From contig DAIDMQ010000003.1 of the NCBI GenBank assembly GCA_027448945.1, forward strand, positions 1 through 64,000: 64,000 bases of DNA, in the 5' to 3' direction. A program made the translations under genes and the position numbers. The first letter of the stretch is position 1. Each line of letters opens with the position of its first letter. Below the pieces are notes generated by a model, which was given only the letters and a program-made list of their open reading frames with translations, made no database searches and was not told the DNA's origin. This DNA is from Gallionellaceae bacterium (GTDB lineage: Bacteria > Pseudomonadota > Gammaproteobacteria > Burkholderiales > Gallionellaceae). This document shows, one piece after another, positions 48,431-64,000 of the stretch.

Positions 48431-49285
48431 ATGAGCCTCGCCGTCCTCTATAGCCGCGCACTGTCCGGCATGGAGGCTGAGCTTGTGACCGTGGAAGTTC
48501 ATCTGGCGAATGGCCTGCCCAGCTTCACCATCGTTGGCTTACCCGAGACCGAAGTAAAAGAAAGCAAAGATCGCGTGCGTGCCGCACTGCAGAACTGCAA
48601 TTTTGAATTCCCCGCCCGCCACATCACGGTCAACCTCGCTCCCGCCGATTTACCCAAAGAAAGTGGCCGCTTCGATTTGCCTATCGCGCTGGGCATACTC
48701 GCTGCGACAGGCCAGATTCCTAAAGACACATTGACTGACTATGAATATGCGGGCGAGCTTGCGCTAACAGGTGAGTTGCGAGCGATACGCGGTGCCTTAG
48801 CGATGACTTATCGTGCTGCCAATTCTGGGCGTGGCTTCATCTTGCCTGCTGAAAACGCAGCAGAGGCTGCATTGGTTGATGATGCCGTGGTTTATGCAGC
48901 TCAATCGCTATTGCAGGTCGCAGCGCATCTAACTGGCCGCGAGATTTTGCCCCGCTATATATCTGATGCGCCACAGCTCACCCCGCATTATCCAGACATG
49001 CGCGAAGTGAAGGGGCAGGGGCAAGGCAAGCGAGCATTGGAGATTGCTGCAGCTGGCGGCCACAGTGTGCTGATGTCCGGTCCACCCGGCACGGGTAAGA
49101 GTATGTTGGCTGCGCGCTTCCCTAGCATTTTGCCGCAAATGACGCAGGCCGAAGCGCTCGAAAGTGCTGCCATGCAATCCTTAGGCGGCATGTTCAAAGT
49201 GGAGAACTGGCGGCAACGTCCTTACCGCGCCCCCCATCACACTGCCAGCGCAGTGGCTTTGGTTGGCGGTTGTAAGCTCCAATAA
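48431..49285 (+). pseudogene. comM: ComM/YifB AAA+ helicase gene, truncated by insertion
   Basis: ComM is a hexameric branch-migration helicase for natural transformation, usually about 500 residues. Here the native frame runs 280 codons. It has the Lon-like N-terminal domain (GLPSFTIVGLPETEVKESKD, INVL-type ChlI segment to residue ~170) and Walker A GPPGTGKS at 217-224. The conserved RPYRAPHHTASAVALVGG then stops abruptly at 49270. After it only four foreign codons (CKLQ) remain before TAA. Walker B, sensor motifs and the C-terminal domain are lost. The missing 3' half is not elsewhere in the window, so it probably lies beyond 64000. Confidence 0.93.
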
Positions 49286-49350
49286 TATTTGCGTCCATAC
49301 ATAATTTTATGCGACCCTACATATTTATTTGCGGATGAAATGTATTCTTA
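49271..49350 (+). repeat. Transposon end with 20-bp-period repeats (TnsB-site-like)
   Basis: After the terminal TGTAAGCTCC, units starting GCG stand at 49291, 49311 and 49331, exactly 20 bases apart. Unit one (GCGTCCATACATAATTTTAT) and unit two (GCGACCCTACATATTTATTT) agree at 15 of 20 positions; unit three keeps only the GCG and an AT-rich tail. Arrays of ~20-22-bp transposase sites are the normal end structure of Tn7-like elements. Confidence 0.65.
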
Positions 49351-49384: not shown

Positions 49385-51127
49385 ATGGATGATGCGAAGA
49401 GTTATAAAGTCTCAACTTTCCCTACTGATGGAAAACTTTGGCGTATAGATTGGATGCATGGCATCCGCATTAATCCAGCGGCAATTAGCGAACAACTCAT
49501 CAAGGTTTTTCTTACACGCCTTAATACCTCGAATGACTTCAACTCGATAAACCCTCTTAACAATCTGAACCTCTCGAAAAAACGATGCAGCGCAGATATA
49601 GGCGTGGGCTTACTACCGTTGGTTTGGACTGGTTCTGTATGGCGAGATGGGCATTTGATAGAAAATGGCATTGAGCACCAAACTCGTACCTTTGCGATCG
49701 ACACAACGCAAGCCCATTTTATAAATTTTTCCTCAACTACCAATAATGGCGCAGCGCCCTGCAGAATAATTCCAGCCTTTCAATATCCGGTGGGATCTGA
49801 AGCTTGGGCGTGTATTAGCAGATCTCCATTAATTGCGCTTCCATATAACAACGATCCACACGGCCTACTTATACCGGCAATAGAAGTAATTCGCTTTTAC
49901 TACATCTATTCTTCGTACTCAGCTAGAGCACTATTCTTTCGCCAGTATGACAAGCTTCTCCGAGAGCCGACAACATTCGATCCTGTCTCTAAAGTTGTAA
50001 AAGTGTTTCTTCACTGGTTCTGCTTGCAGTCTGATGCATGGGTTTTGGCAAGATATAAAGCGTCACCTTTAATGCAAGAAAGGGTGAAGAATATTTACGA
50101 ATGGATTCAACTTGAAAGCATCAATAAATTCGATTCTATGCCGCATGGCAACTCATTTTTTCCATTCGATGGCCTTTCTAAGCTGTCGGCACAATTCAGA
50201 CCGATTATCGGAGAGGATGGAGTAAAAAGATTTCTCGCTGTTAGGTTACTAAATTGCACAGCCGCTATGCCATTTTCAGATGTTGTACTAGAGGTCAAGA
50301 AAAAACCAATCGCTCCAGATGAGGCAAAGGAACTTAAACCAATATGGGGGAGAGTCTTGCCATACGGTTGCGATGATATTCCCAAAATCTTCAATCATAG
50401 TGGGGAGCCAGACAAAAGCTACTTCCCAATTAAGTTAGGGGTCTTTGAAGATAGGTTTGCTGCTCTTGAAGGAAAGAGGCTGCAAGTAATTTATAAGTCT
50501 TCGGACAAGTCTAGCGGCAATGCTGTTGTCAAATCACCGGACAGTCCTAAAATTGGAGTTGGTACGTCTGGCGGCACCTATGGTGAAAATAACACGGCGA
50601 AAGCCAATGTAAGCCTTGATGTCACAACGCGGGCTGACAATAGCCTTCTTGATGACTTTCTTAAGGCGCTAGAATACTTGCGCAAAATTAAAGGTTTTAA
50701 CGTTATTACTATACCAGTAGGTGGGGGCTCCTATTCACATAGGAACGAAACCATCAGTTTTTTCCCGCCTGGCCAATCTGAGCATCGATGGTCAAGCGTT
50801 GGTGTGGGAATTGCCGAGAATGGCAACAAGCGTATCTTGCCAAGAAGATTGATTGTTGCGGAATTGCAATTCACTGGAAAGATATTTTATGCAATGGAAA
50901 TGGAACGAAAGCCCGGTAATGACGAAAATTTCTCTGTCCTAATTCTTGCTAAGAGCGACCACACAGTTATGACACCGGCAGAGTTAGAGGGATTCATCAA
51001 GCAATGTATGGTCCATAATCGCTGGCCCCCTAAAAGTGAAATGCGCAACTACCGAAGAAGCTCAGTCTCGCATATGGCTGGACTAGGTGATCGGATAGCA
51101 TCTGCGCTAGTCGAGGTTGGAGTGTAG
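49385..51127 (+). CDS. TnsE-like transposition target-selection protein (proposed)
   Basis: A 580-residue protein with no signal or membrane segment, from an AT-richer stretch than the core. I recognise a TnsE-like order of elements. A helix IPAIEVIRFYYIYSSYSAR resembles the TnsE IPQLELARSLFLINSY segment; VVKVFLHWFCLQSDAWV follows; then FFPFDG and FLAVRLLNCTAAMPFSDVV. A C-terminal domain holds FYAMEMERK, NRWPP and SVSHMAGLGDRIASAL, parallel to the TnsE LLEVDAS, LNWP, NHPKGL and WAERV series. The comparison is from memory, not an alignment program. TnsE steers Tn7 to replicating plasmids by binding the sliding clamp. Adjacent 3' genes lie 4 bases away. Confidence 0.6.
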   Translation: MDDAKSYKVSTFPTDGKLWRIDWMHGIRINPAAISEQLIKVFLTRLNTSNDFNSINPLNNLNLSKKRCSADIGVGLLPLVWTGSVWRDGHLIENGIEHQTRTFAIDTTQAHFINFSSTTNNGAAPCRIIPAFQYPVGSEAWACISRSPLIALPYNNDPHGLLIPAIEVIRFYYIYSSYSARALFFRQYDKLLREPTTFDPVSKVVKVFLHWFCLQSDAWVLARYKASPLMQERVKNIYEWIQLESINKFDSMPHGNSFFPFDGLSKLSAQFRPIIGEDGVKRFLAVRLLNCTAAMPFSDVVLEVKKKPIAPDEAKELKPIWGRVLPYGCDDIPKIFNHSGEPDKSYFPIKLGVFEDRFAALEGKRLQVIYKSSDKSSGNAVVKSPDSPKIGVGTSGGTYGENNTAKANVSLDVTTRADNSLLDDFLKALEYLRKIKGFNVITIPVGGGSYSHRNETISFFPPGQSEHRWSSVGVGIAENGNKRILPRRLIVAELQFTGKIFYAMEMERKPGNDENFSVLILAKSDHTVMTPAELEGFIKQCMVHNRWPPKSEMRNYRRSSVSHMAGLGDRIASALVEVGV

Positions 51128-51131
51128 TCTC

Positions 51132-51563
51132 GTGCCTGCTATCGGTTCTCTCATGCTGTGCCTTGTAATCGGTATATCTGATGGCGATACGCTTACGGCC
51201 CGTTGTGACACCGATCAATTGAAGGTACGTCTGGCAGAAATTGATGCTCCTGAAAAACGTCAGGCATTCGGAACACAATCCAAGCAAGCTTTATCGGATA
51301 TGTGTTTTCAACGTATTGCCGAGTTACGCGTCGTTGCTCATGACCGCTATGGCCGGACTGTTGCGAGAGTGGAATGTGACGGTGTTGATGCCAATGCTGA
51401 GCAAGTAAGGCTAGGCATGGCTTGGGTATATGACAAGTACGTTAAGGATACCAGCCTGTACCAATTGCAGGATGAGGCGCGCGTTGCAAGGCGTGGTTTG
51501 TGGACGGACTCTGCCCCAATAACGCCTTGGACATTCCGATTAAGATCTAAGGGAAAACTATGA
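51132..51563 (+). CDS. Staphylococcal-nuclease-family (SNase/TNase) protein
   Basis: A small nuclease of about 143 residues with a hydrophobic N-terminus (AIGSLMLCLVIG) that may be a signal peptide. Catalytic elements are ISDGDTLTARC, VRLAEIDAPEKRQAFGTQ (Arg, Asp and Glu of the active site) and HDRYGRTVARVECDG with the second Arg. NAEQVRLGMAWVYDKYV and ARVARRGLW are typical of the family. I chose the GTG at 51132, ten bases after GGAG; the frame is also open from a TTG at 51117. It starts four bases after the TnsE-like stop and its stop overlaps the next ATG. Confidence 0.88.
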   Translation: MPAIGSLMLCLVIGISDGDTLTARCDTDQLKVRLAEIDAPEKRQAFGTQSKQALSDMCFQRIAELRVVAHDRYGRTVARVECDGVDANAEQVRLGMAWVYDKYVKDTSLYQLQDEARVARRGLWTDSAPITPWTFRLRSKGKL

Positions 51564-53533
51564 GCACCCCTCGCTACCTAACCAAATCCCGCTTCAAGCT
51601 TGCTGTTGAGTGTCCGACCAAGCTCTTCTATACCGGCAAGATCGAGGAATATCGCGATACTATGGTTGAGAATGATTTTCTCGCCATGCTGGCCGAAGGA
51701 GGTTATCAAGTTGGCACGCTCGCCAAGTTGCGCTACCCCGGCGGAATTGAAATCGAAGGGCTGAACCACGCGGCGGCTGAAGCGCAAACCAGCGAATATC
51801 TCAAGCGCGACAATGTGGTGCTATTTGAGCCAGCCATCCGCGTGGCTGATTTCTTTATCCGCATTGATGTATTGATCAAGACAGGCAATCAGTTCGAGCT
51901 GATCGAGGTAAAAGCTAAGTCGTATAACTCGATTAAGCCAGAAATCGAGGGAAAGCGCGGAGGAATCAATTCCGACATGCTGCCCTATATTCAGGATGCA
52001 GCTTTTCAAACTTGGGTGTTGCGGCAGGCGTTCCCAGGTGCTCAGATTACTACCGCGCTGATGATGCCGGACAAGGCGCAACTCGCGCCGGTGGACGGAA
52101 TAAACCAGATGTTTAAGACCAATGGTCGCTCAAGTGTCGAGGTGCACATCCCACAAGGCATTGATATGAAGGCACTGGCTGAAACATTGCTTGCCAAGGT
52201 GTGTGTCGATCGCTATGTCGAACAGGTACTCAACCAATCAATTGATTTTCCCGGAGGCCCCGCCACGTTGGACGATGCTGCGGCGGCTTGGGCTGAGGCC
52301 TACCGTAATGACCAGCGCATTGTTCCCGTTATCGGCGCGCAATGCGGCGGCTGCGAGTTCAAGTCAGCACCTGGCGATGCTCTCAAGAGTGGTTTCCACG
52401 AATGTTGGGAAATTGCAAACGGCTGGGTAGCTCAAGACTTCGATGCCGGTACGGTACTGGATTTATGGAATTTCCGTGGCAAGCAGAAATTGATTGACCA
52501 AAGCATACTCAAAATCAGCCAAGTCACGCGCGATGACATTGGTGAATTCGATGATGAGCCGAATCCTGATGGTCTTAACCGTAAGCAGCGCCAGTGGCTA
52601 CAAGTGGCCGGCATTCCGGCCGATTATGATGGCGGCGGTTATTATTTCGACCGTGCGCTGGCATCTGTTGAAATGTCGCGTTGGCGCTTTCCCTTGCACT
52701 TCATTGATTTTGAAACTTCTACCGCAGCGTTGCCATTCTACAAGGGGATGCATCCCTATGAGCCGGTGGCATTTCAGTTTTCGCATCACATTATGGAGGC
52801 TGATGGCAGCGTGCGACATGACGGGCAGTTTTTGTGTGTGGAGCCAGGGGAATTTCCGAACTATCGATTTGCACGGGCACTGAAAGATGCGCTAGAAGGA
52901 GATAACGGCTCTGTGTTTATGTGGAGCCACCACGAAAATACCATCCTCTCCAAAATCATTGAGCAGCTTGCCAAAGACCCAAATAGGCCTGTAGACGCTG
53001 ATGCATTGACCGACTTCATCAAACACCTAATCAAGGGTGGAGATCGTGCCATGGTTGACTTGTGTACGATGGCTGAAAAATCTTTCTTTCACCCCGACAC
53101 CAACGGCGGTAATTCGATTAAAGCCGTGCTTCCTGCGATTCTCAAGGTTTCAGAAGTGCTTCGCGAAATATACAGTAGGCCAATATACGGCGCACCTAAC
53201 GGAATCGTCAGCCTCAATTTTTCCTCACCTAATGGGATAGCCTGGATAGATATTGAAGCAGATGGAACTGCCAGTAATCCTTATGCCAAGCTCAAGCAAT
53301 TGGCAATTGGCATGATTCCCGACGAGGCCAAGGATTTCGAGGGGAATGTTAGTGCCATTGCCGAGGGCGGCGCAGCAGCAACCGCTTACGCGCGGCTTCA
53401 ATTTGAAGATATGGATAAGCAAACGCGGGAACGAATCTGCGCTGCGCTGCTGCGTTACTGCGAACTTGATACTCTGGCGATGGTGATGGTGGTCCAGGCG
53501 TGGCAGGTAATGAAAAATGAGGCTCTTGCCTGA
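51560..53533 (+). CDS. DUF2779 protein: Cas4-like PD-(D/E)XK nuclease fused to a DEDDy exonuclease domain
   Basis: 657 residues, cytosolic. The N-terminal half looks like Cas4/RecB-type nuclease: RIDVLIKTGNQFELIEVKAK supplies Asp103, Glu116 and Lys118. Cys18 (AVECPTKLF) with Cys262, Cys265 (QCGGCEF) and Cys282 (HECW) fits a four-Cys iron-sulfur site. The C-terminal half carries HFIDFETSTAALPF (Asp383, Glu385), FMWSHHENTILSKI, MVDLCTMAEKSF (Asp500) and RYCELDTLAMV (Tyr633 and Asp637), the DEDDy 3'-5' exonuclease pattern. It closes a three-gene operon (ATGA overlap). Its biological role is unknown; a DNA-processing or defence role is inference. Confidence 0.85.
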   Translation: MSTPRYLTKSRFKLAVECPTKLFYTGKIEEYRDTMVENDFLAMLAEGGYQVGTLAKLRYPGGIEIEGLNHAAAEAQTSEYLKRDNVVLFEPAIRVADFFIRIDVLIKTGNQFELIEVKAKSYNSIKPEIEGKRGGINSDMLPYIQDAAFQTWVLRQAFPGAQITTALMMPDKAQLAPVDGINQMFKTNGRSSVEVHIPQGIDMKALAETLLAKVCVDRYVEQVLNQSIDFPGGPATLDDAAAAWAEAYRNDQRIVPVIGAQCGGCEFKSAPGDALKSGFHECWEIANGWVAQDFDAGTVLDLWNFRGKQKLIDQSILKISQVTRDDIGEFDDEPNPDGLNRKQRQWLQVAGIPADYDGGGYYFDRALASVEMSRWRFPLHFIDFETSTAALPFYKGMHPYEPVAFQFSHHIMEADGSVRHDGQFLCVEPGEFPNYRFARALKDALEGDNGSVFMWSHHENTILSKIIEQLAKDPNRPVDADALTDFIKHLIKGGDRAMVDLCTMAEKSFFHPDTNGGNSIKAVLPAILKVSEVLREIYSRPIYGAPNGIVSLNFSSPNGIAWIDIEADGTASNPYAKLKQLAIGMIPDEAKDFEGNVSAIAEGGAAATAYARLQFEDMDKQTRERICAALLRYCELDTLAMVMVVQAWQVMKNEALA

Positions 53534-53918
53534 TCTAACTGCGTATTCCGGTGAAAAAAGCCACCTACAATGTCCGCAAACCCACCGTCAATAATGCCCG
53601 CAATGCAGCCACCTAAAATGGAGTAATAGCGCCGCCTGATGTATGAGTTATTTGAACTGCATACTCTCTTTGGATAGATCAGATAGTCGCTAACTTGATA
53701 TGCAGTGAATTTATTAGTTGGCCACGGAATACTGATCTGACCAAAATCGCGCTAAATTCAGAACGTAAGCGGTTCGAATCAGAACATTTGGTACCCGATA
53801 CAAGTCGTTCACGAAGTATCACAAACGAGACATTGGAGTCGTTCACGACAGGCAGCTATATGGCAGGCAATTCAGCTAGAAAAACCTCTCAAAAAGTGAA
53901 GAAAATGGTGTGAATGCG
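53534..53918. other. Gene-free stretch with a possible IS21-family end remnant
   Basis: Starting at 53540, TGCGTATTCCGGTGAAAAAA and two copies of a GCCACCTA motif (near 53570 and 53613) resemble the repeated end sequences of IS21-type elements as I remember them. No istA/istB fragment is present. A 72-codon frame at 53695-53913 has no ribosome site and looks random. This is a likely scar between the nuclease operon and the metal cargo. Confidence 0.4.
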
Positions 53919-54539
53919 TTAGCTATTGCCCTTGCGGCAGTAACAATAAACAAATTGCTGATCGGTGCCAAACGGCGTGTGATGCACCTCCTTCTCATGC
54001 GCGACCAGCAAAAAAGCATCACCAAATTCCGCGTGCAGACTTTCTGGCTGGTATCGCATCACGGGTAGGCCGCTGCATTTTTCCGGGCCATCTGCGGCAA
54101 AGGTGGCAACAATCACATGCCCACCCGGGCGGACTGCATGCATGACCCGCTCGACATAAGCGTGACGGTCAGCCGGGTCAGTCAGAAAATGGAATACCGC
54201 ACGGTCATGCCAAATATCGAAGCGATGTTCGGAAAATTCTGCACGGGTAATATCGCCTTCCATCCAGTGTACGGCGTCCGCCTGTTTTCCCAAACGCTGC
54301 TTTGCGACCGTCAGCGCCGCTGATGACAGGTCGAGCACGGTCAAATCGGTATAGCCTTCCGCCACAAGGTCATCCACCAAGTTAGATGCTCCTCCGCCCA
54401 CATCAATGATGGCCGCATCTTTACCCAGCCCCGTGTTGTGGATGAGCCGCAAAGATTGATCGGCATGTTCCTGAAACCAGCTGACCGAATCAGATGGCTT
54501 GGTCGCATAAACCTGTTCCCAATGTTGCTTGCTATCCAT
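53919..54539 (-). CDS. Class I SAM-dependent methyltransferase
   Basis: 206 residues. Motif I is AAIIDVGGGASNLVDDLVAE, followed by TVLDLSSAALTVAKQRLG, VHWMEGDITRAEF and VRPGGHVIVATFAADGPEKC. The N-terminal HWEQVYATKPSDSVSWFQEH is common in small methyltransferases annotated as TehB- or thiopurine-like. The substrate cannot be read from sequence; in this metal island a metalloid or thiol substrate is a guess. It is 10 bases after the DsrE-like gene on the minus strand. Confidence 0.85.
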   Translation of the reverse strand: MDSKQHWEQVYATKPSDSVSWFQEHADQSLRLIHNTGLGKDAAIIDVGGGASNLVDDLVAEGYTDLTVLDLSSAALTVAKQRLGKQADAVHWMEGDITRAEFSEHRFDIWHDRAVFHFLTDPADRHAYVERVMHAVRPGGHVIVATFAADGPEKCSGLPVMRYQPESLHAEFGDAFLLVAHEKEVHHTPFGTDQQFVYCYCRKGNS

Positions 54540-54549
54540 ACTTGCCCCC

Positions 54550-54870
54550 TTAAAAACTCAACACTTTGTCCGAATCACGGATCAGCGCATACAAATCCTG
54601 CATAGTGGAAACCGGGCAAATGTCCGATCCCTCAGACTGGCGTAATTTCAGACAAGTACCACAAGCCAAAATTGAACCACCTAGTGCCGAAAAACTGCGC
54701 ATTTGCCCAGTGACATCGAACTTTTCGCTAACCAGCGATTCGGCCTCTACGCCCTTGCCAAGCAAAAAGACTGAAACCGCATCCCCTTGCTTGCGGGAAA
54801 AAAAGCCGAGTCGAAAAGCGTTCCAGACGGTTTCCGGGTCGTTTGAATAAATAACAATTCCAAGTTTCAT
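54550..54870 (-). CDS. DsrE/DsrF-like family protein
   Basis: A 106-residue cytosolic protein of the DsrE fold. MKLGIVIYSNDPETVWNAFR is followed by VSVFLLGKGVEAESLVS, and the Cys pair LACGTCLKLRQSEG corresponds to the conserved reactive Cys region of sulfur-carrier relatives. It has its own ribosome site (GGAGGCACC) and probably shares a transcript with the methyltransferase. A role in sulfur transfer or thiol stress is possible but unproven. Confidence 0.82.
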   Translation of the reverse strand: MKLGIVIYSNDPETVWNAFRLGFFSRKQGDAVSVFLLGKGVEAESLVSEKFDVTGQMRSFSALGGSILACGTCLKLRQSEGSDICPVSTMQDLYALIRDSDKVLSF

Positions 54871-55003
54871 GGTGCCTCCTGCATGTTAATTTTCAAGCAA
54901 TGAAGGGTAGTAGAAAAATTTACACGACGTCAATCATACTCTTCAGGCATGCCTGCTTCGATCAATTTCAGAAAGAGACATTTCAAAACCTGAATGCAAT
55001 TTT

Positions 55004-56068
55004 CTAATGCCTATGCTGATGATGCGCATCCGGAAAATGTCGATGAGCATGCGTCAGTGGTTCATGACGATGCAAATGGCGATGTTGGCTACCCGGTGTT
55101 GTCTGGGAATCGTGTTCATGCTGGTGATGTTCGTCGTGAGTATGATCATGGTCATGCATCAACTCCGCATGTATATGCCGGTGTTCATGGTACTCGGTCA
55201 GATGCAGCCAAGTACCTAGCGCCATAAGTGCCCCAGCCAAGAGCAGTGGTGACGTGACCGGCTCACCCATCAGCACAGCAAGCAAAGCACCGAAGAACGG
55301 CGCAATTGAAAAATAGGCACCCGTGCGCGCCGTGCCCAGATGACGTAGCCCCACTACAAACATTGTCAAACTTACGCCATAAGCCAGCAAGCCAACCAGC
55401 ATTGCGCCTGCCAGTTGCGGGAGTGCCGGTATTGAAGCACCCAACCATAAGGCCAACGTCAGGTTGACACCTCCCGACACCAAACCTTTTACCGAAGCGA
55501 TCCATGTAGCGTCGGTGAGCGATACTTTACGCGTCAGGTTGTTGTCTATGCCCCATGCCAGGCATGCGCCCAGAATTGCCAGCATCGGCCATAACCCGGC
55601 TATATGTGCGTCTCCTGACCAGCTTAACACCACAGCACCAGCCACAATAGCAAGCATACCTAACGCGATGCGCCTATCAAAGTTTTCTCTGAAAACGAAC
55701 CATGCCAGTAGCGCGGTAAATACACTTTCAGCATTCAGCAAGAGAGAGGCGGCAGATGCTTGCATACCGGTCAGGCCGATCATCAACAGCACAGGCCCGA
55801 CGATACCGCCCGCCAGAATTGCTCCGGCAAACCAGGCTATTTCCCTGCGTGGAAGCTGTACGGCAGGCGCGTGGCTCAGACGACGATACAGTAGCAGACC
55901 AATACCTGAACCCGAATAGAGCAATCCCGCCAACAGCCACGGATCGACAGACTCAAGCAGCCACTTCGCTAAAGGTGTTCCCGTGCCAAATAACAAAGCT
56001 GCCCCTATTGCTGCGGGTATGCCCGGTTGGCAAACTGCTTCTTTCCAGTTCATCTGTTCCGCTTTCAA
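55004..56068 (-). CDS. DMT-superfamily (EamA) transporter with a histidine-rich C-terminal tail
   Basis: Inner-membrane protein of 354 residues with two EamA repeats, about ten helices (AAIGAALLFGTGTPLAKWLL, ASAASLLLNAESVFTALLAW, GTARTGAYFSIAPFFGALLA). After the last helix comes a 63-residue cytoplasmic or periplasmic tail with 23 histidines (HDHDHTHDEHHQHEHD, HRHLHRHEPLTHAHRH). Such tails bind Zn, Ni or Co in other exporters. DMT proteins normally move metabolites or drugs, so metal export is inferred from the tail and from cadA upstream. Confidence 0.88.
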   Translation of the reverse strand: MKAEQMNWKEAVCQPGIPAAIGAALLFGTGTPLAKWLLESVDPWLLAGLLYSGSGIGLLLYRRLSHAPAVQLPRREIAWFAGAILAGGIVGPVLLMIGLTGMQASAASLLLNAESVFTALLAWFVFRENFDRRIALGMLAIVAGAVVLSWSGDAHIAGLWPMLAILGACLAWGIDNNLTRKVSLTDATWIASVKGLVSGGVNLTLALWLGASIPALPQLAGAMLVGLLAYGVSLTMFVVGLRHLGTARTGAYFSIAPFFGALLAVLMGEPVTSPLLLAGALMALGTWLHLTEYHEHRHIHAELMHDHDHTHDEHHQHEHDSQTTPGSQHRHLHRHEPLTHAHRHFPDAHHQHRH

Positions 56069-56228
56069 ACAATGTAACGTTTAGTACATGGGTTGGCGAA
56101 GATAATTATGTTCAATCAGACATATAGCGGGCTCATGAGTAAGAATTGATGCCTGAAATTCCATACAGTTTCCGCTGCCTTGATAACCAGCCTCTTGGTT
56201 GCCGTGATTCGGATGCCGTACCAAATAT

Positions 56229-58412
56229 TCATCTCGTATGGCCAGATTTTATGTGGTCGCGTTCAATACCGCCCTTAATACGGAGCAAGCGCATCCCATT
56301 AAATACCACGATCAGGCTGGCCCCCATATCGGCAAAGACCGCCATCCAGAGCGTGGCTTTCCCTGCCAGAGCCAAAGCGAAGAATATCGCCTTGATGCCG
56401 ATGGCCAGCGTGATGTTTTGTTTGAGCACACGGGAAGTATTTCGGCTTAGCTGGATGAAGTGTGGCACTTTGCGCAAATCGTCATCCATCAGTGCAACAT
56501 CGGCGGTCTCGATGGCAGTATCTGTACCGGCGCTGCCCATAGCAAATCCTATAGATGCCTTGGCTAACGCAGGCGCGTCGTTGATTCCATCACCCACCAT
56601 GCCGACATGATCGTAACGGTTCATCAACTCATCGATTACTGCCAGTTTTTCTTCCGGCAGCAGATTGCCGCGCGCATCGTCTATGCCCACCTGGGCAGCG
56701 ATGGCGCTGGCCGTCGTCTGGTTGTCGCCGGTCAACATCACTGATGCCACACCGAGAGCATGAAGTTGGCGGATAGCCTCCGCGCTATGGCCGCGCACCG
56801 TGTCGGCCACACCGATGACGCACAGCGACTCGGTTGCCGTAGCCAGCACCACGGCTGTCTTGCCTTCCTGCTCCAGACGATGCAGAGCCTCTTCGACATG
56901 CACTCCGCAGATGCCCAGTTCTTCGATCTGCCGATGGTTGCACACATAGTAAAGTTGCCCCTCGACAACCGCTTTGGCACCGCGACCTGTGAGGGACTCG
57001 AACGAAATGGCGGGTAGCAACGAACGCGGCGTTCCGTTCCCGTCGGCAGGCGTCTGCCATGCCGATACGATGGCAGACGCGATGGGATGTTCGGAATGCA
57101 CGTCCACGCTGGCGGCCAGTTGCAGCAGGCTGTCGGCAGGCAACTCAACCAGCGGAACCACATCGGTCACGACAGGCTTGCCGTGCGTGAGCGTGCCGGT
57201 CTTGTCCAAAGCTACGGCTTTTATCAGGCGTCCGTTCTCCAGATGCACGCCGCCCTTGATCAGTATGCCCTGCCTTGCCGCAGCGGCAAGCCCGCTCACC
57301 ACGGTAATGGGCGTGGAGATTACCAGCGCGCAGGGGCAGGCGATCACCAGCATGACCAGCGCCTTGTAGAACCATGGCTCGAACGCGGCACCGAACAGCA
57401 ACGGAGGAACGGCCGCCACCAGAACCGCGAACACCACCACGGCGGGGGTGTAGTAACGCGCGAACTGGTCGACGAAACGTTGCGTCGGCGCGCGTTGGCC
57501 TTGCGCCTCTTGCACCGTGTGGATGATGCGATCCAGCGTGGTGTTGCCCTTGTTTGCGGTGACGCGAAACTCCAGCATACCGCGCTCGTTCAGCGTACCG
57601 GCGAACACCGGATCGCCCGCCGCTTTCAACACGGGCATGCTCTCCCCGGTAATCGGCGCCTGGTTCACCGAACTGCCGCCCGCCGTGACCACGCCGTCCA
57701 GCGGAATACGCTCTCCCGGTTTGACGCGCACCACTTGCCCAACCTGCACGTCGGTTACTGCTGTCTCGCGCCATTCGCCGTTGTCGAGTTGCACGGTGGC
57801 GACCTCGGGAGTCATCGCCATCAGCCCCTTGATTGCGTTCTTGGCCCGCTCCAGCGAGAGCGTTTCGATCAACTCGGCCAGCGCGAACAGGAAAATCACC
57901 ACCGCAGCTTCCGGCCATTCGCCGATGGCAAGCGCACCGATGACGGCGATGCTCATCAGGAAATTCATATTGAGGGCGAAGTTCTTGAGCGCGATCCAGC
58001 CTTTTTTCAGAGTGCTGAGGCCACCGGTGACAATGGAGAGCAAGGCCAGAGCGATCACCGCAACCGATTGCTCGCTCGCGCCGTTCCACGCGACGATTTC
58101 CGCAACCATGGCCGCAGTACCGGACACCGCCATCAGCGCCCATGTCCGGCGCGATACCACGGGGGATTCCGCTTCGCAGCTCGAACAGGAGCCGGACTGG
58201 CATTGCGGCTCGGGGTCTGTCTTCATACCTATCTCGCGCAAGGCATCGAGGATAGGCTGTTCATCGTCCAGTGTATGCGTGACGGCAAGACGGCGGGTTA
58301 TCAGGTTGAACGACAGCTCGCCGATGCCGGGCATCGATCCGAGACGCTTGCGGATCAGTGCCTCCTCAGTTGGACAGTCCATGTTACGAATATTGAACAT
58401 TGAGTGTTTCAT
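56229..58412 (-). CDS. cadA: Heavy-metal P1B-type ATPase (Zn/Cd/Pb exporter, CadA/ZntA type)
   Basis: 727 residues. The N-terminal HMA-like domain has one Cys only (FNIRNMDCPTEEALI) followed by a Cys cluster (CQSGSCSSCEAE). The membrane part contains the transport motif VIACPCALVISTPITVVSGL near residue 359; cytoplasmic motifs are VALDKTGTLTHGKPV near 404, the TGES actuator in ITGESMPVLKAAGD, and MVGDGINDAPALAKA. CPC with this context marks the Zn/Cd/Pb subgroup. No MerR- or ArsR-type regulator is adjacent. The ATG at 58400 is an alternative start. Confidence 0.93.
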   Translation of the reverse strand: MKHSMFNIRNMDCPTEEALIRKRLGSMPGIGELSFNLITRRLAVTHTLDDEQPILDALREIGMKTDPEPQCQSGSCSSCEAESPVVSRRTWALMAVSGTAAMVAEIVAWNGASEQSVAVIALALLSIVTGGLSTLKKGWIALKNFALNMNFLMSIAVIGALAIGEWPEAAVVIFLFALAELIETLSLERAKNAIKGLMAMTPEVATVQLDNGEWRETAVTDVQVGQVVRVKPGERIPLDGVVTAGGSSVNQAPITGESMPVLKAAGDPVFAGTLNERGMLEFRVTANKGNTTLDRIIHTVQEAQGQRAPTQRFVDQFARYYTPAVVVFAVLVAAVPPLLFGAAFEPWFYKALVMLVIACPCALVISTPITVVSGLAAAARQGILIKGGVHLENGRLIKAVALDKTGTLTHGKPVVTDVVPLVELPADSLLQLAASVDVHSEHPIASAIVSAWQTPADGNGTPRSLLPAISFESLTGRGAKAVVEGQLYYVCNHRQIEELGICGVHVEEALHRLEQEGKTAVVLATATESLCVIGVADTVRGHSAEAIRQLHALGVASVMLTGDNQTTASAIAAQVGIDDARGNLLPEEKLAVIDELMNRYDHVGMVGDGINDAPALAKASIGFAMGSAGTDTAIETADVALMDDDLRKVPHFIQLSRNTSRVLKQNITLAIGIKAIFFALALAGKATLWMAVFADMGASLIVVFNGMRLLRIKGGIERDHIKSGHTR

Positions 58413-58464
58413 GATCTACCTTGGCTTCACTAGGTTTCTGTGGCTTGAAAAATTCTGAGTTTCT

Positions 58465-59045
58465 TTAGAACTCGTACTCAATCTGCATCCTGAAGGTGTG
58501 ATTGGGCCTGTCTTGCTTGTCACTGATAGGTCAAATTGGTGCCGTATGGCACACCACTTTTATCGGCCTTTTCAAATGCGCGTTCAAAAAGCAAATTGCC
58601 ATTCATCTGGAGCTTGCCGGAGTCTGTCTGAAGCAATGACCCCAGCTTGAGCTCCCACGGCGCATCGCCTTTTAACGGGGCTTCCGTTTCGATGACAAAG
58701 CCAAGATCAAGCGGATATTACCAGTCTCGGTGTGCTGGAACTTGTTCACCCATTCAGCCAGCGTGACCTCTGTGTTTCCGCTACGAACCTGTTTTAAATA
58801 TATCTCTGTGAACCAATATTCCTTTGCGCCGAAACCTAATCCGATACTGGCAACTTTTGCGGGATTTCCGGCTTGTGACGAGGCTGTGCCGTACTTGATA
58901 TCAATTTCCCGCTCACCATATTCGACTGCGGGGTATAGACATAATCCGCAGCACCGGCAAAAGCATCCTGCGCTCCGACAATTCCGCAGAGCAGGATGCC
59001 CAGAGAAAATAAATTAGCAAACGAAAATGCGAAATAATTTTTCAC
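58465..59045 (-). pseudogene. Degraded outer-membrane protein gene of the FTR1 iron locus
   Basis: Reading the minus strand from a GTG at 59045 there is a signal peptide (FANLFSLGILLCGIVGAQDA) and GAADYVYTP. The reading frame then shifts to AVEYGEREIDIKYGTASS and GAKEYWFTEIYLKQVRSG, shifts again to TEAPLKGDAPWELKLGSLLQ and NGNLLFERAF, hits a stop after NLTYQ, and resumes only at the very end with NHTFRMQIEYEF before TAA at 58465. At least two frameshifts and an internal deletion are needed. It starts 5 bases after the FTR1 gene, so it was the third gene of that operon. Confidence 0.8.
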
Positions 59046-59050
59046 GATGA

Positions 59051-59875
59051 TTATTTTCGTACCGTGGTTGGCTGCGAACGAGCAGCCCATTTCATGCCGA
59101 TGAAAATGACAATCAGTGCAGTAAGGTAAAAAATGATCTGCATTCCTGCCGGACGTGAGTCATAGCCAATCAGACTGTGCAGTAATATGCCGGTTAGTCC
59201 ACTTTCCGGCAGTAGCGCAGACGTGTCCCATAGCGGCGAGGCGAGGCTGGGCAACAAATCGGCTTGAATCAGGAAATGCGCAGCTTGCGAGGCCATGCCT
59301 GCTGCTAATAGCAACACCAATATGCCAGTAGCAGCAAAGAACCAGCGCATCGGCACGCGCAGCAGCCCGGCAAATATTGTGTAACCAACCACAATACCGA
59401 GCAGCATGCCAACCATGCCGCCGAGCAGCATTGAAGACTGTCCGCCCTCACCAGATGTTGCGATGCCATAAAGAAACAGCACAGTTTCTGAACCTTCTCT
59501 GAGTACAGCCAGCCCGACGATAACAAATAGCACCGAACACTCGCTGTTTCCGTCACGAATGGCACTGCCCACTAAACGAGCGTTGGCCGCCAGCGCAGCA
59601 CCGTGAGACGCCATCCAAATGTTGTGCCATGCCAGCATCAGCACCGCGATGCCGAGTACGATGGTGTTGAAAATTTCTTGACCGATGCCGCTGGCCAGCG
59701 ATCCGATCACGTCGGTTGAAGCTGCGACCAATCCCGAACCCACTAATCCAGCCACCAGTCCAGCGGCCAACCAGCGTTTGCTGCCGTGAATGCTGCGCGT
59801 CGCGGCAGTGAGAATCCCGATGATGATGGAAGCTTCCAATACTTCCCGAAAAACAATGATGGCAGTTGCGAACAT
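59051..59875 (-). CDS. FTR1-family high-affinity iron permease
   Basis: Inner-membrane permease of 274 residues with seven predicted helices. The two iron-binding REXXE motifs are visible: FREVLEASIIIGIL near residue 10 and LREGSETVLFLYG near 129. It is preceded by a periplasmic cupredoxin, the FTR1-P19/EfeO-like arrangement. No EfeB peroxidase or multicopper oxidase is present in the window. It is expected to take up iron across the inner membrane. The cupredoxin start and a Fur box lie upstream. Confidence 0.92.
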   Translation of the reverse strand: MFATAIIVFREVLEASIIIGILTAATRSIHGSKRWLAAGLVAGLVGSGLVAASTDVIGSLASGIGQEIFNTIVLGIAVLMLAWHNIWMASHGAALAANARLVGSAIRDGNSECSVLFVIVGLAVLREGSETVLFLYGIATSGEGGQSSMLLGGMVGMLLGIVVGYTIFAGLLRVPMRWFFAATGILVLLLAAGMASQAAHFLIQADLLPSLASPLWDTSALLPESGLTGILLHSLIGYDSRPAGMQIIFYLTALIVIFIGMKWAARSQPTTVRK

Positions 59876-59884
59876 GATATTTTC

Positions 59885-60202
59885 CTATTTTGCGACGATT
59901 GAACCTTGGGCGGTTGCTGCGTGAAATTCGCCGGTGAAGGCGTAGCGTCCGGGCGTAAGTGGGCCGATGTAAATCGTCGCGGCGCCACGTCCGGCAATCA
60001 CTTTTTCCCGGTTTAGATCGTGGCTATCGAATTCCTCGGGGGTGGCATCCTGATTCTCAACCAAGAGCTTGATTTTCTTGCCTGACGGGATGGTTAACTC
60101 AGACGGCTGGAAGCTGTGATCCTTGATGATCAGCGTATAGTCGGCATCGGCTGCATAGGCAGCGAATGGTAGTAGCAGGAAAATAAGTGAAAGACGTTTC
60201 AT
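59885..60202 (-). CDS. Periplasmic cupredoxin-like protein (EfeO/P19-type partner of FTR1)
   Basis: 105 residues with signal peptide RLSLIFLLLPFAAYAADA. A cupredoxin fold follows: YTLIIKDHSFQPSELTIPSG, KIKLLVENQDATPEEFDSHD and YIGPLTPGRYAFTGEFHAA. It has His and acidic residues at the metal end but no Cys, so not a classical blue-copper site. Nine bases separate it from the FTR1 gene, so it is co-transcribed. It probably delivers iron to, or oxidises iron for, the permease. Confidence 0.88.
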   Translation of the reverse strand: MKRLSLIFLLLPFAAYAADADYTLIIKDHSFQPSELTIPSGKKIKLLVENQDATPEEFDSHDLNREKVIAGRGAATIYIGPLTPGRYAFTGEFHAATAQGSIVAK

Positions 60203-60226
60203 GGCGAACCCCGTAGTTAACTAGTC

Positions 60227-60247
60227 ACAAATGATAATCATTCTTAT
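60227..60247. promoter_or_regulatory. Fur box between the divergent iron operon and fur
   Basis: The core TGATAATCATT at 60232-60242 matches the Fur consensus, with 14 of 19 consensus positions by my alignment. It sits between the cupredoxin start (60202, minus) and the fur start (60303, plus), so one site can repress both. Confidence 0.78.
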
Positions 60248-60302
60248 TTGCAATTACAAGTATTTCCTGACATGATGATTCAAAAATCTAAAAGGTCTTG
60301 AT

Positions 60303-60734
60303 ATGCACCAACCTGATCACCTAAAAACTGTCGGTCTAAAATCCACCTTGCCACGGCTCAAGGTGTTGAGCCTGTTCGAAGCTAGCAAGCAACGACATCT
60401 GAGCGCGGAGGAGGTATACAAGCTGCTGCTCACCAGCGGTGACGATGTCGGCCTAGCGACCATTTATCGCGTGCTCACCCAGTTCGAGCAGGCTGGTCTG
60501 CTGATGCGGCACCATTTCGAGGGCGGCAAATCGGTGTTCGAACTTAATCAGGGCGAACACCATGATCACATCGTGTGTATGCAATGCGGCCATGTCGAAG
60601 AGTTTTACGACGCAACTATTGAGGCACGCCAGAAAATAGCCGCCACCGATCGCGGATTTACCATTCACGACCACTCTCTCTATATCTACGCAGACTGTAA
60701 CAAGCCAAAATGCCCCAATAAAATACAAAGCTGA
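60303..60734 (+). CDS. fur: Fur-family ferric uptake regulator
   Basis: 143 residues. The winged-helix part (LKSTLPRLKVLSLFEASKQR, HLSAEEVYKLLLTSGDDVGL, ATIYRVLTQFEQAGLLMRHH) is followed by the metal sites HHDHIVCMQCGHVEEFYD (HHDH and CxxC) and a C-terminal CNKPKC pair. A second genomic fur is likely; this copy is a local regulator carried with the FTR1 genes. It is autoregulated by the adjacent Fur box, by inference. Confidence 0.92.
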   Translation: MHQPDHLKTVGLKSTLPRLKVLSLFEASKQRHLSAEEVYKLLLTSGDDVGLATIYRVLTQFEQAGLLMRHHFEGGKSVFELNQGEHHDHIVCMQCGHVEEFYDATIEARQKIAATDRGFTIHDHSLYIYADCNKPKCPNKIQS

Positions 60735-60774
60735 AAATTCCCTCGTCAAATGTTTCATTGTCTGAATCTCCATG

Positions 60775-60811
60775 CCCTGTGGGCTTGAAAAAACCACAGG
60801 GTTCTTTATTT
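60775..60811 (+). terminator. Terminator after fur
   Basis: An 8-bp stem CCCTGTGG/CCACAGGG with an 11-base loop, followed by TTCTTTATTT. It lies 40 bases past the fur stop. Confidence 0.65.
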
Positions 60812-60892
60812 CCGCTTGTCAGTTATCATTTTGGAGCTGGCTGAGGCTGACCCATCCAGCAACAGCACTGGACACAGGCATATTCCTAAAGA

Positions 60893-61288
60893 TTAAGGCA
60901 AAGCAGCCAATACCCGCTCCAGCCGCTGACGTACCTCAATCGCCAGCAGGCTGATCTCAGGTTTGTTTACCAAATCCAGTACGGCGGCTGGATCCATGAA
61001 TTCCACATGCACCGAGCCTTCCTCATCCTGGCGCACGACCACGTTACAGGGGAGCAGCAGACCGATAGACGGCTCAGCCTGCAATGCACGATGAGCCAGC
61101 GGGGGATTGCAAGCACCGAGAATGCGGTAAGGTGGCATCTCAGCATTGAGTTTCCTTTTCATCGTGGCAGCCACATCGATATCGGTCAACACACCAAAAC
61201 CCTCGGACTGCAAAGCACGTACCACTTGTTCCAAAGCACTGTCAAAATCTAGTACAGCTTTCTTGCCAAATCCATAACGAATTTCCAT
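60893..61288 (-). CDS. DUF302 domain protein
   Basis: 131 residues, cytosolic. DUF302 hallmarks are FDSALEQVVRALQSEGFGVL, DIDVAATMKRKL, YRILGACNPPLAHRAL and IGLLLPCNVVVRQ. AAGGAG lies seven bases before the ATG at 61288. The family is common near thiosulfate, copper and heavy-metal genes. The Cys in GACNPP and LPCNV are conserved in many members. The function is not established. Confidence 0.9.
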   Translation of the reverse strand: MEIRYGFGKKAVLDFDSALEQVVRALQSEGFGVLTDIDVAATMKRKLNAEMPPYRILGACNPPLAHRALQAEPSIGLLLPCNVVVRQDEEGSVHVEFMDPAAVLDLVNKPEISLLAIEVRQRLERVLAALP

Positions 61289-61359
61289 GTTGTTCTCCTT
61301 GAATTGCATTTATAACCAAGCCATGCCGCACAAACGCCCTAGCGGCCAAAAACTTCCTG

Positions 61360-61581
61360 CTAAATCCCCTTCATATCATCCCGCCTTTTCAGATACTCAT
61401 CACGACCGATTTCGCCTCGGGCATACCGCTCATCCAGCATCTCTAGCGCTTTGGCGGGTTCACTACCGCCCCCATTCTTACCAGCAAGATATTTGACCAC
61501 CGCCAAAACCAGAAAAATCAGCAGCAGCCAGAACAACGCCATGCCCAGCCATCCACAGCCCATCCCGTATTCCCACATCAT
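61360..61581 (-). CDS. SHOCT-domain small membrane protein
   Basis: 73 residues. One membrane helix (LGMALFWLLLIFLVLAVVKY) sits between a Met/Trp/Gly-rich start and a short C-terminal SHOCT helix pair (AKALEMLDERYARGEIGRDE, YLKRRDDM). Such proteins often accompany metal efflux genes but have no defined activity. GGAGG precedes the ATG. Confidence 0.85.
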   Translation of the reverse strand: MMWEYGMGCGWLGMALFWLLLIFLVLAVVKYLAGKNGGGSEPAKALEMLDERYARGEIGRDEYLKRRDDMKGI

Positions 61582-61684
61582 AATTTCCTCCTTTTTGCGT
61601 TAATTACGTACACACCTGCTTCGTTCGTAAGGTGACAAGCGCAATGTATAAACACAAGAATTCCGGCTAATTGGCGCATTACGT

Positions 61685-62041
61685 TCAAGTTTTGGATTGC
61701 CAACCAGCTATCGGAACTGCCTGGATGATGTCGCTGATGTAAATCCAGCCAGCCTCGGCTTGGCCGGTGCGGGCGGCGTGCCCGATGATGGCCACTAGCT
61801 CGTCCACCTGGAGATCCTCGCAAACCAGTTCCAGCTTCGATTCGTTGATAACTGTCTCGGCCAATTCGATGGAATAGTGTTGCTCCTTGGCGTCCACCGC
61901 CTTCAGTAGGCTTTGCACCGGGATGACGGCAAGATTGCGGCAGCCAGGCGTTCCGTCCGTGTTGCACAGCCCTGATTCTTTTACGGCGCGAATCACATCG
62001 GCGATGCGGTGGTTGTGGATATAAGCCTTGATTTCTTTCAT
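61685..62041 (-). CDS. P-II-like signalling protein beside CzcA
   Basis: 118 residues with the P-II ferredoxin-like fold (MKEIKAYIHNHRIADVIRAV, ESKLELVCEDLQVDELVAII, GQAEAGWIYISDIIQAVPI). It lacks the Tyr51 T-loop sequence of GlnB/GlnK, and has a Cys-containing loop (GLCNTDGTPGCRNLAVIP) instead. Similar non-canonical P-II proteins are known next to CzcA/CusA pumps in proteobacteria. It may gate or report on metal export; this is inference. The gene is 57 bases after the czcA stop, same strand. Confidence 0.82.
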   Translation of the reverse strand: MKEIKAYIHNHRIADVIRAVKESGLCNTDGTPGCRNLAVIPVQSLLKAVDAKEQHYSIELAETVINESKLELVCEDLQVDELVAIIGHAARTGQAEAGWIYISDIIQAVPIAGWQSKT

Positions 62042-62098
62042 GCGGATTCTCCTGATTTAGTGATTGCGTGCGGCCCGGTCAGGCCGCACGCTACTGGT

Positions 62099-64000
62099 TT
62101 ACTTCGCTTGTTTGCGTTCGCGGCGTGTCTCCACCCACTCGTACATCAACGGCAAAAGCAGCAACGTCAACGCCGTAGAGGTAAACAATCCGCCCACCAC
62201 GACCGTCGCCAGCGGGCGCTGAGTTTCCGCGCCCACACCCGAAGACAAGAGCATCGGCACCAGACCGAAGATGGCGATGGAAGCCGTCATCAAAACTGGT
62301 CTTAATCGCAATGCGGCACCTTGCTTAACAGCTGCACGCACCGACAAGCCCCGTTCACGTTGATCATTTAAAAAAGTCACCAGCACGATGCCGTTCAGCA
62401 TCGCAACACCAAATACGGCAATAAATCCGATGGCCGATGGTACAGACAGGTATTGTCCGGTAATGAATAGCCCGATCACACCGCCGATAGTGGCGAACGG
62501 CACGTTGGCAATGATCAGCGTGGCGTAGGTAAGCGAATTAAATGCCGTATACAACAGGATGAAGATCAGCCCGATGGTGAGCGGCACGATCAGCGCCAGC
62601 TTGGCCATGGCGCGCTGCTGGTTCTCAAAGGCGCCACCCCACTCGATCCAGTAGCCGGCTGGAATCTTCACTTCGCTCTTGATCCTGGCCGCTGCCTCCT
62701 TCACGAAGCTGTCCACGTCGCGCCCTTTCACGTCCATCTGGATCACAGCGTAACGTTGCAGCTGTTCGCGCCGGATGAAGGAATAACCTTCATCCAGTTC
62801 CACCGTGGCGACTCTGGAAAGGGGAATCAGCGCGCCGCTCTGGGTGCGAATCGGGATGTTGTTGATGGCTTCCACGCTGTTGCGGAAATCGGGCGCGAGC
62901 CAGACCTGGATGTCGAAACGCTTGACCCCGTCGATCAGCGTACTCACCGCCTTGCCGCCGATGCCGGCCTGCACCACCTCAAGGATTTCGTCGGCGTTGA
63001 TGCCGTAGCGCGCCGCCTCATCCCGGTTCACCTTGACCACCATCTGCGGCTTGCCTTTGTTCGCTTCCAGCGACAGATCCGCGACGCCCGGCACTTTCTC
63101 CAGAGCGGACTTAAGCTCACCGGACAGGCGGTCAAGGGTAGTCAGGTCTTCGCCGTAGAGCTTTAGCGCGAGCGTGGCGCGTACCCCGGAAATCAACTCC
63201 TCGACGCGCATCTGGATCGGCTGGGTGGCCGAAATCACCGAGGTCGGCACGACCTGTTCCAGCTTGTCCTGCATCTCCCTGGAGAGATCGGGGAAGGAAA
63301 TGGCTTTGGGCCACTGGTCGCGTGGTTTGAGATTCACCAGGATTTCCATGTAGTTCACGTCCGCGGTTTCGCCCTTTTCCGCGCGCCCGATCATGGCTAT
63401 GGCCGAAGTGGTTTGCGGGAAGGTTTTCAGTGCAGCTTCGAGGCGCTCGGAGATGCGGATGGATTCGTCGAGCGAAGTGGAAGGGATACTGGTCACCCGG
63501 AACATGATGCCGCCCTCCTGCAGGGTGGGCATGAATTCCTTGCCGAGGAAAGGAATCAACGCGACGGACGCCACCAGCAGCACCCCTGCACCGGAGAACA
63601 CTTTTTTCTTGTTCTCCAGTGCCCAGTCGAGCAAGGGCAGATAGAGCTTTTTCGCCCACCTGACTATAAAGGTGTCTTTCTCCTCCTTGGGCTTCAGGAT
63701 CAGCGCCGACATGACCGGCACCAGCGTCATGGTCAGCACCAGCGAACCCACCATCGCGAAAGTGATGGTCAGCGCCATCGGCTTGAACAGCTTGCCTTCC
63801 AGCCCGGTCAGGGAAAACAGCGGCAGGAACACCACGATGATGATCAGGATCGCGAACGCGGTCGGATTGATCACTTCCCGCGCCGCTTCCAGGATCACGT
63901 GCGTCTTGTTCACCGCCGCCTTGCCGGCCTGGTGCGAAAGCAGGCGGAAGCCGTTCTCCACCATCACCACGGCGCCATCCACCATCATCCCGATCCCCAC
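62099..64000 (-). CDS. czcA: CzcA/CusA-type heavy-metal RND efflux pump (C-terminal 633 residues; starts outside the window)
   Basis: Inner-membrane proton-driven pump of the HME-RND family. About the last 60 % of a normally ~1030-1060-residue protein is present. TM4 region GIGMMVDGAVVMVENGF is at the window edge. Then come NPTAFAILIIIVVFLPLF, the periplasmic DN/DC loops (MFRVTSIPSTSLDESIRISE, YGINADEILEVVQAGIGGKA), GYWIEWGGAFENQQRAMAKL, VFGVAMLNGIVLVTFLN and a final helix ending YEWVETRRERKQ. The substrate (Co/Zn/Cd or Cu/Ag) depends on TM4 residues just out of view, so czcA is used in the broad sense. Confidence 0.92.
   Translation of the reverse strand: MGIGMMVDGAVVMVENGFRLLSHQAGKAAVNKTHVILEAAREVINPTAFAILIIIVVFLPLFSLTGLEGKLFKPMALTITFAMVGSLVLTMTLVPVMSALILKPKEEKDTFIVRWAKKLYLPLLDWALENKKKVFSGAGVLLVASVALIPFLGKEFMPTLQEGGIMFRVTSIPSTSLDESIRISERLEAALKTFPQTTSAIAMIGRAEKGETADVNYMEILVNLKPRDQWPKAISFPDLSREMQDKLEQVVPTSVISATQPIQMRVEELISGVRATLALKLYGEDLTTLDRLSGELKSALEKVPGVADLSLEANKGKPQMVVKVNRDEAARYGINADEILEVVQAGIGGKAVSTLIDGVKRFDIQVWLAPDFRNSVEAINNIPIRTQSGALIPLSRVATVELDEGYSFIRREQLQRYAVIQMDVKGRDVDSFVKEAAARIKSEVKIPAGYWIEWGGAFENQQRAMAKLALIVPLTIGLIFILLYTAFNSLTYATLIIANVPFATIGGVIGLFITGQYLSVPSAIGFIAVFGVAMLNGIVLVTFLNDQRERGLSVRAAVKQGAALRLRPVLMTASIAIFGLVPMLLSSGVGAETQRPLATVVVGGLFTSTALTLLLLPLMYEWVETRRERKQAK

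Follow-up and report, generated by a model that had tools for sequence, protein, structure and literature searches.

Two nuclease genes beside a divergent tnsE appear to be cargo of a Tn7-like transposon in comM of a Gallionellaceae bacterium

The first 64,000 nt of contig DAIDMQ010000003.1 (assembly GCA_027448945.1, forward strand), from a Gallionellaceae bacterium, form the window analysed here. Between positions 49385 and 53533 three consecutive genes encode a TnsE relative, a staphylococcal-type nuclease (SNase) and a DUF2779 protein. The locus is very probably the tnsE end of a Tn6022-type, Tn7-like transposon inserted in comM, with the SNase and DUF2779 genes carried as cargo and not as effectors recruited by TnsE. 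The features of this end are the following.

48431..49285, + strand: 5′ part of comM/yifB; native sequence to about 49270, the last codons being transposon DNA
49266..49270, no strand: target-site duplication GCGGT, the same 5 bp as the ACCGC beside the other end (L004:1900-1904)
49271..49298, + strand: transposon end (tnsE side), an imperfect terminal inverted repeat beginning TGTAAGCTCC; 22 of 28 bases identical to the end at L004:1905
49385..51127, + strand: tnsE of a divergent branch, 580 aa, apparently mosaic, the last ~80 codons nearest to a second lineage
51132..51563, + strand: SNase-family nuclease, 143 aa from the GTG at 51132 (PF00565, E 6.5e-21)
51560..53533, + strand: DUF2779 protein, 657 aa, with, by motif, a Cas4-like PD-(D/E)XK part and a DEDDy-type exonuclease part (PF11074, E 2.3e-22)
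53534..53918, no strand: intergenic stretch after the nuclease block, with short imperfect repeats; no open reading frame of at least 80 aa listed

The comM gene is cut within its Mg-chelatase domain, the 5′ part (TIGR00368, E 1.1e-101; PF13541/PF01078) lying in the window and the 3′ part on the minus strand of a second contig, C41 (L004:1249-1944). At both junctions GCGGT/ACCGC is followed by an element end starting TGTAA, and 22 of the first 28 bases agree. Inverted repeats ended by TGT/ACA and a 5 bp target duplication are present in the split gene. At the far end, on C41 (L004), tnsA, tnsB, tnsC and tniQ follow in order (PF08722/PF08721, PF09299, PF05621 and PF06527, each above its cut-off), while tnsE, close to the other end, points inward from the opposite strand. 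Loci L030 and L046 provide single-contig examples with comM, tnsE and convergent tns genes. Scanning 13 loci for comM together with a TGT end gave six matches (the window, L046, L047, L048, L077 and L039) and seven without a match. In L046, L047, L048 and L077 the TGT-starting end falls at or within a few bases of the comM site used in the window; the L039 match was discounted, as it falls inside a tnsE-like frame. At L095:8283-13231 a tnsE-like gene stands between comM 5′ and 3′ matches about 3.6 kb apart, a short element and perhaps a remnant.

The tniQ frame (L004:5419-7086) runs to the end of its contig, far past the TniQ domain (residues 12-154), and is perhaps a TniQ-TnsF fusion; its residues 331-556 gave no significant Pfam or PDB sequence match and look tyrosine-recombinase-like by eye only. 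One such fusion is reported by Faure et al. 2023 (PMC10293859). In L030 the end of tniQ overlaps a gene (L030:16693-17886) that encodes DruA of the Druantia defence group (PF14236, E 2.5e-67) and is not recognisable as tnsF.

A preliminary description of this DNA had reported three coupled reading frames at the very end of an island, and both observations hold. The transposon end at 49271 is 114 bp ahead of the tnsE start codon, a gap of 4 bases (51128-51131) separates tnsE from the SNase GTG, and the SNase and DUF2779 frames overlap at an ATGA. The SNase frame is also open from an in-frame TTG at 51117 (51117-51563), which gives 5 residues more than the GTG start.

The same description had likened the first protein to TnsE. 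Structure comparison and profile-profile comparison bear this out, though family searches miss TnsE, and the protein is a real but divergent relative. It has the fold of the TnsE C-terminal domain. Seven TnsE chains head its Foldseek list and score well above the next VIA-align row, and a match due merely to a common fold was rejected on these grounds. Comparison of profile A3 with A2 (probability 97.6, E 2.6e-12, 377 columns) adds sequence homology to TnsE along the protein. Identity to canonical Tn7 TnsE (PDB 5d16, 5d17) and to the Thiopseudomonas TnsE (9d5l) is 16–18 %. No significant family emerged from Pfam, NCBIfam, PADLOC or PHROGs, nor a credible relative from PDB sequence searches with the protein and with A1. 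Among 7997 candidates scored in a protein search, 21 relatives besides the entry of the protein itself reached E ≤ 0.001; tblastn against plasmids gave no match, and viral-contig scans gave no TnsE relative. The stretch PAIEVIRFYY of the window protein aligns with the canonical PQLELARVLF, which is presumably the beta-clamp interaction motif, and P, E and R are kept. That TnsE has such a motif is described in PMC5371812.

Canonical tnsE is described as sitting in one operon with the core genes, whereas the window tnsE is remote from tnsABC-tniQ. Tn6022-type elements in comM are described with tnsABC, tniQ and tnsF and, far from these and on the other strand, a tnsE close to the second end (Faure et al. 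2023, PMC10293859); the window element shares this remote placement of tnsE. Two TnsE branches of less than 10 % identity are distinguished there, the remote branch having a PriB-like N-terminus; a PriB/OB (oligonucleotide/oligosaccharide-binding)-like N-terminus is hinted in the window protein as well. The window case differs from the Tn6022 type in its apparently mosaic tnsE, in the coupled nuclease genes that follow it and in its Gallionellaceae genome, and is likened to the AjTn6022 TnsE by description only. Counting the own genome each time, searches for TnsE-family relatives were positive for 15 of 399 genomes at order level, 4 of 369 at class level and 10 of 158 at family level. In genome G143 a canonical TnsE (C28, L008) and a divergent-family member (C19, L051 and L075) occur on separate contigs.

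From known biology, TnsABC would cut and paste the element, and TniQ with a putative TnsF-like partner would send it to comM. TnsE would offer a second route by binding replication-fork structures, such as those of conjugating plasmids.

The second protein belongs to the SNase family (PF00565, 75.2 bits against a cut-off of 21), and its catalytic residues, read from the sequence, are taken to be intact. There is no room for a normal signal peptide, whereas the relatives in L047, L030 and L040 have signal-like N-termini; an upstream start with a signal peptide is ruled out by an in-frame stop at 51108-51110. In the third protein, the residues kept among 38 aligned DUF2779 homologues are C18, D103, E116-V117-K118, C262, C265, C282, D383-F384-E385-T386 and Y633xxxD637, which are presumably Cas4-like and DEDDy motifs. 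DUF2779 (PF11074) has been placed in RNase H-like clade F.17, among presumed 3′-5′ exonucleases, and contains a PD-(D/E)XK-like DUF83 domain (PMC3985635). The window protein shares with that family the profile match and residues of both the exonuclease and PD-(D/E)XK types, in agreement with the earlier label of a Cas4-DEDDy nuclease; the position beside tnsE is seen only in the window. No DUF2779 member of experimentally tested function was met in the literature and database searches made. The two proteins would probably act independently, one as a non-specific nuclease and the other as a Cas4-like nuclease and presumed 3′-5′ exonuclease. One DUF2779 relative, L078, appeared in the viral-contig scan.

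The window TnsE itself appears to be of mixed ancestry. Residues 1-490 are nearest to the relative P0002 (77 %; P0009, 56 %), and residues 501-580 are nearest to P0009 (94 %; P0002, 51 %). The best breakpoint, 498/500, has a chi2 of 95.7, a value reached by none of 2000 shuffles, and of the informative sites to its right 35 agree with P0009 and 0 with P0002. When P0009 is replaced by P0007, P0010, P0011 or P0012 the break stays in the same place (chi2 60.2–77.3, 0/2000 each); four control triplets, run without shuffles, gave chi2 2.9–18.5. DNA identity to the P0002 element declines over the final stretch of tnsE and stops where the gene does, and G+C rises at the tnsE end from 0.40–0.45 to 0.46–0.54. 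Judged from the sequence, tnsE is a likely mosaic whose last, nuclease-proximal part derives from another lineage. Most simply, the tnsE end and the nuclease genes would have come together from an element like that of P0007, a TnsE, and P0161, a DUF2779 protein 93 % identical to that of the window. The SNase gene, the DUF2779 gene and the last ~80 tnsE codons would probably have been acquired as one block when the element recombined homologously with another; the two nuclease genes would be cargo in the first slot inside the tnsE end. The donor and direction of this exchange are inferred, the direction because the tail resembles several members of the P0009/P0007 group.

The preliminary description had further supposed that the three genes travel together and form a single targeting or defence system. 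Twenty-nine distinct tnsE loci, window included, were surveyed (G506 and G514 give two each; an 88-aa fragment, G139:C32, and L088-L090, copies of L046-L048, were excluded), some of them cut by contig ends. Locus genes were called as longest open reading frames, and matches were taken at phmmer E ≤ 1e-5 in this survey and at E ≤ 1e-3 in the other locus scans, including those of DUF2779 loci. Among the 21 close TnsE relatives, neighbourhoods cover P0002, P0006 and P0016 only (L046, L047 and L048). A comM fragment is present in 17 of the loci and TnsA/B/C/TniQ matches in 9. SNase matches occur in four (the window, L030, L040, L047), Endonuclease_NS-type matches in three (L044, L046, L091) and DUF2779 in the window alone. 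DUF2779 genes at E ≤ 1e-30 were found at nine loci in 8 of 399 genomes, own genome included; none of the eight loci besides the window has a tnsE or SNase match in the surrounding stretch, some of these being short (L066, 3.3 kb; L070, 9.5 kb; L072, which begins at the gene). Recurrence of tnsE, SNase and DUF2779 together was thus not found, though a possible second tnsE-DUF2779 contig, that of P0007 and P0161, would favour some linkage.

A TnsE-guided system, with plasmid or phage DNA marked during its replication and then degraded by the two nucleases, is therefore most improbable. The coupled frames, the TnsE homology of the first protein, the apparently intact SNase residues and the possible P0007/P0161 contig would all fit it, but DUF2779 accompanies tnsE in just 1 of 29 loci, the other DUF2779 loci lack both partners in the stretches available, and the tnsE beside the nucleases appears to be mosaic. 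Additionally, the SNase relatives look exported (by eye), which would keep them apart from a cytoplasmic TnsE. A two-gene defence or DNA-processing unit of SNase and DUF2779, moving between elements without TnsE, is somewhat easier to entertain yet still unlikely. It would account for the ATGA overlap, and plasmid pPAES01 carries a DUF2779 gene (41.9 % identity, 97 % query coverage) and, 1.7 kb after it, a thermonuclease-family gene; however, a further gene intervenes there and the thermonuclease-family protein is short (122 aa), plasmid pB1A has no annotated nuclease of the SNase kind near DUF2779, and no SNase match lies near the eight other DUF2779 loci within the stretches available. These two plasmid neighbourhoods are the ones looked at among 26 records with a match. 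The two nuclease genes have the look of interchangeable passengers on the element rather than components of a single new machine.

What such passengers do for an element in comM can be considered from the position directly after tnsE, where the first gene is a small non-specific nuclease or a remnant of one in 5 of the 29 loci, a biased count, as two of the reference nucleases were picked from the same loci. Besides the window, these are L046, the nearest tnsE relative with readable DNA (72 % identical), with an Endonuclease_NS gene (PF01223, E 1.9e-42); L047, with an SNase gene; L048, with a frameshifted gene and a weak Endonuclea_NS_2 match (E 0.0011, below cut-off); and L091, with a 52-aa Endonuclease_NS remnant. 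Read by eye, the nuclease genes of L046, L047 and L048 begin with an apparent signal peptide, which in L048 is out of frame with the domain; the SNases of L030 and L040, more distant, start in the same way with an apparent signal peptide. Window excluded, three SNases lie near tnsE in 0.519 Mb against 0.12 expected (Poisson P 2.9e-4), the expectation coming from 14 SNases in 17 genomes (58.8 Mb); within 19 loci of those 17 genomes there are 2 against 0.087 expected (P 0.0036). All these counts are exploratory, related loci being non-independent.

It is conceivable, though on balance doubtful, that nucleases beside tnsE help a comM-inserted element to escape removal, a refinement of the cargo reading in which loss of comM lowers recombination of taken-up DNA, an exported nuclease destroys the incoming DNA, and the window SNase has lost the signal for export. 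The position after tnsE, the apparent signal peptides and the SNase excess point this way. Mobile-element DNases that prevent natural transformation are known, and AbaR disruption of comM lowers transformation (PMC11472951). The host has a ComEC-family gene, but so do 10 of 14 control genomes, so this says little about competence of the host. The window SNase, with no room for a normal signal peptide, speaks against such a role for this copy; the nuclease types vary, with one remnant and one frameshifted gene, as in ordinary cargo turnover; and the five loci are a biased count of related cases. Plasmid-derived cargo is an alternative, as an 86-base SNase stretch matches in the 10 records listed out of 229 plasmid records, 227 of the 229 being typed conjugative. 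A wider and likewise speculative proposal is that comM-inserted Tn7-like elements maintain a ‘nuclease slot’ directly internal to the tnsE end, in which non-specific, mostly exported nucleases of the SNase, Endonuclease_NS or HNH type replace one another. Together with comM disruption this would be a two-layer transformation block guarding the element from curing, and the 3′ part of tnsE would act as a homology port for swapping the contents of the slot, leaving a mosaic tnsE as in the window. No published description of a nuclease slot beside tnsE was found among the literature matches listed.

Several observations weigh against the reading of the locus as a tnsE end with independent nuclease cargo. 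Treatment of the window contig, C3, and C41 as one element rests on matching ends and the target duplication, with the intervening contigs unjoined. The narrower 22-sequence TnsE family alone gave E 0.013 and probability 3.3 in profile comparison, too weak a match, so divergent members from the genome search were added before A3 was compared with A2. By sequence alone Pfam TnsE_C was missed (E 0.058, below cut-off, in 1 of 22 family members; absent in 21), and the Gln of the canonical PQLELARVLF is not kept. Weaker breaks are also obtained with P0003 (chi2 18.4, 2/2000) or P0008 (30.5, 0/2000) in place of P0009, so the P0002 tail may be unusually divergent and may supply part of the mosaic signal. 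The spacing of the three genes (4 bases, then an ATGA overlap) makes their joint translation probable, and juxtaposed cargo need not show such coupling. P0007 and P0161 may share a contig, as inferred from both being listed with a longest contig of 99,171 bases, and the tnsE-DUF2779 link may then be older than the window. Lastly, a small nuclease after tnsE is commoner than expected, which may reflect a functional tnsE-nuclease link.

The 5 bp target duplication of AbaR islands is ACCGC, the same as that of the window element. Like the window element, AbaR/Tn6022 resistance islands interrupt comM in its Mg-chelatase domain (PMC11472951), whereas the cargo of the window element includes a heavy-metal ATPase, an AcrB-family efflux gene and a type II cyclic-oligonucleotide-based antiphage signalling system (CBASS); no search was aimed at drug-resistance genes. 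Nuclease genes on mobile elements, here with a putative anti-transformation role, are shared with the transformation-blocking DNases of an integrative and conjugative element of V. cholerae and a prophage of C. jejuni described in the same source; the window differs in element type and in the SNase/Endonuclease_NS families beside tnsE. The window element is a new example of the published comM/Tn6022-type group of Tn7-like elements with nuclease cargo and is ordinary in kind; surprises could still come from the mosaic tnsE and the nuclease slot. What looked like a new three-gene system thereby finds its place in a transposon of known kind, and a false lead is removed. Additionally, a divergent TnsE branch is added in a probably iron-oxidising lineage, a tnsE of apparently mosaic make-up is presented with its break beside cargo, and the idea is raised that comM-targeting elements, if the above holds, hit transformation twice, by breaking comM and by carrying nucleases.

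Further genes follow the nuclease block. Positions 53919-64000 of the window together with L005:1-3763 encode a methyltransferase, a DsrE-like protein, a heavy-metal P-type ATPase, an FTR1 iron permease and an AcrB-family efflux pump, with a Fur-like regulator and the remaining pump genes read by eye; the stretch is probably cargo, with heavy metals as its theme. To the right of the window, PADLOC identified the type II CBASS (phospholipase effector, cyclase, E1-E2 and JAB) at L005:9572-13952 (C3 73572-77952), probably further cargo of the element. Within the probable cargo, an IS21-type transposase and IstB pair is located at L005:6697-9176.

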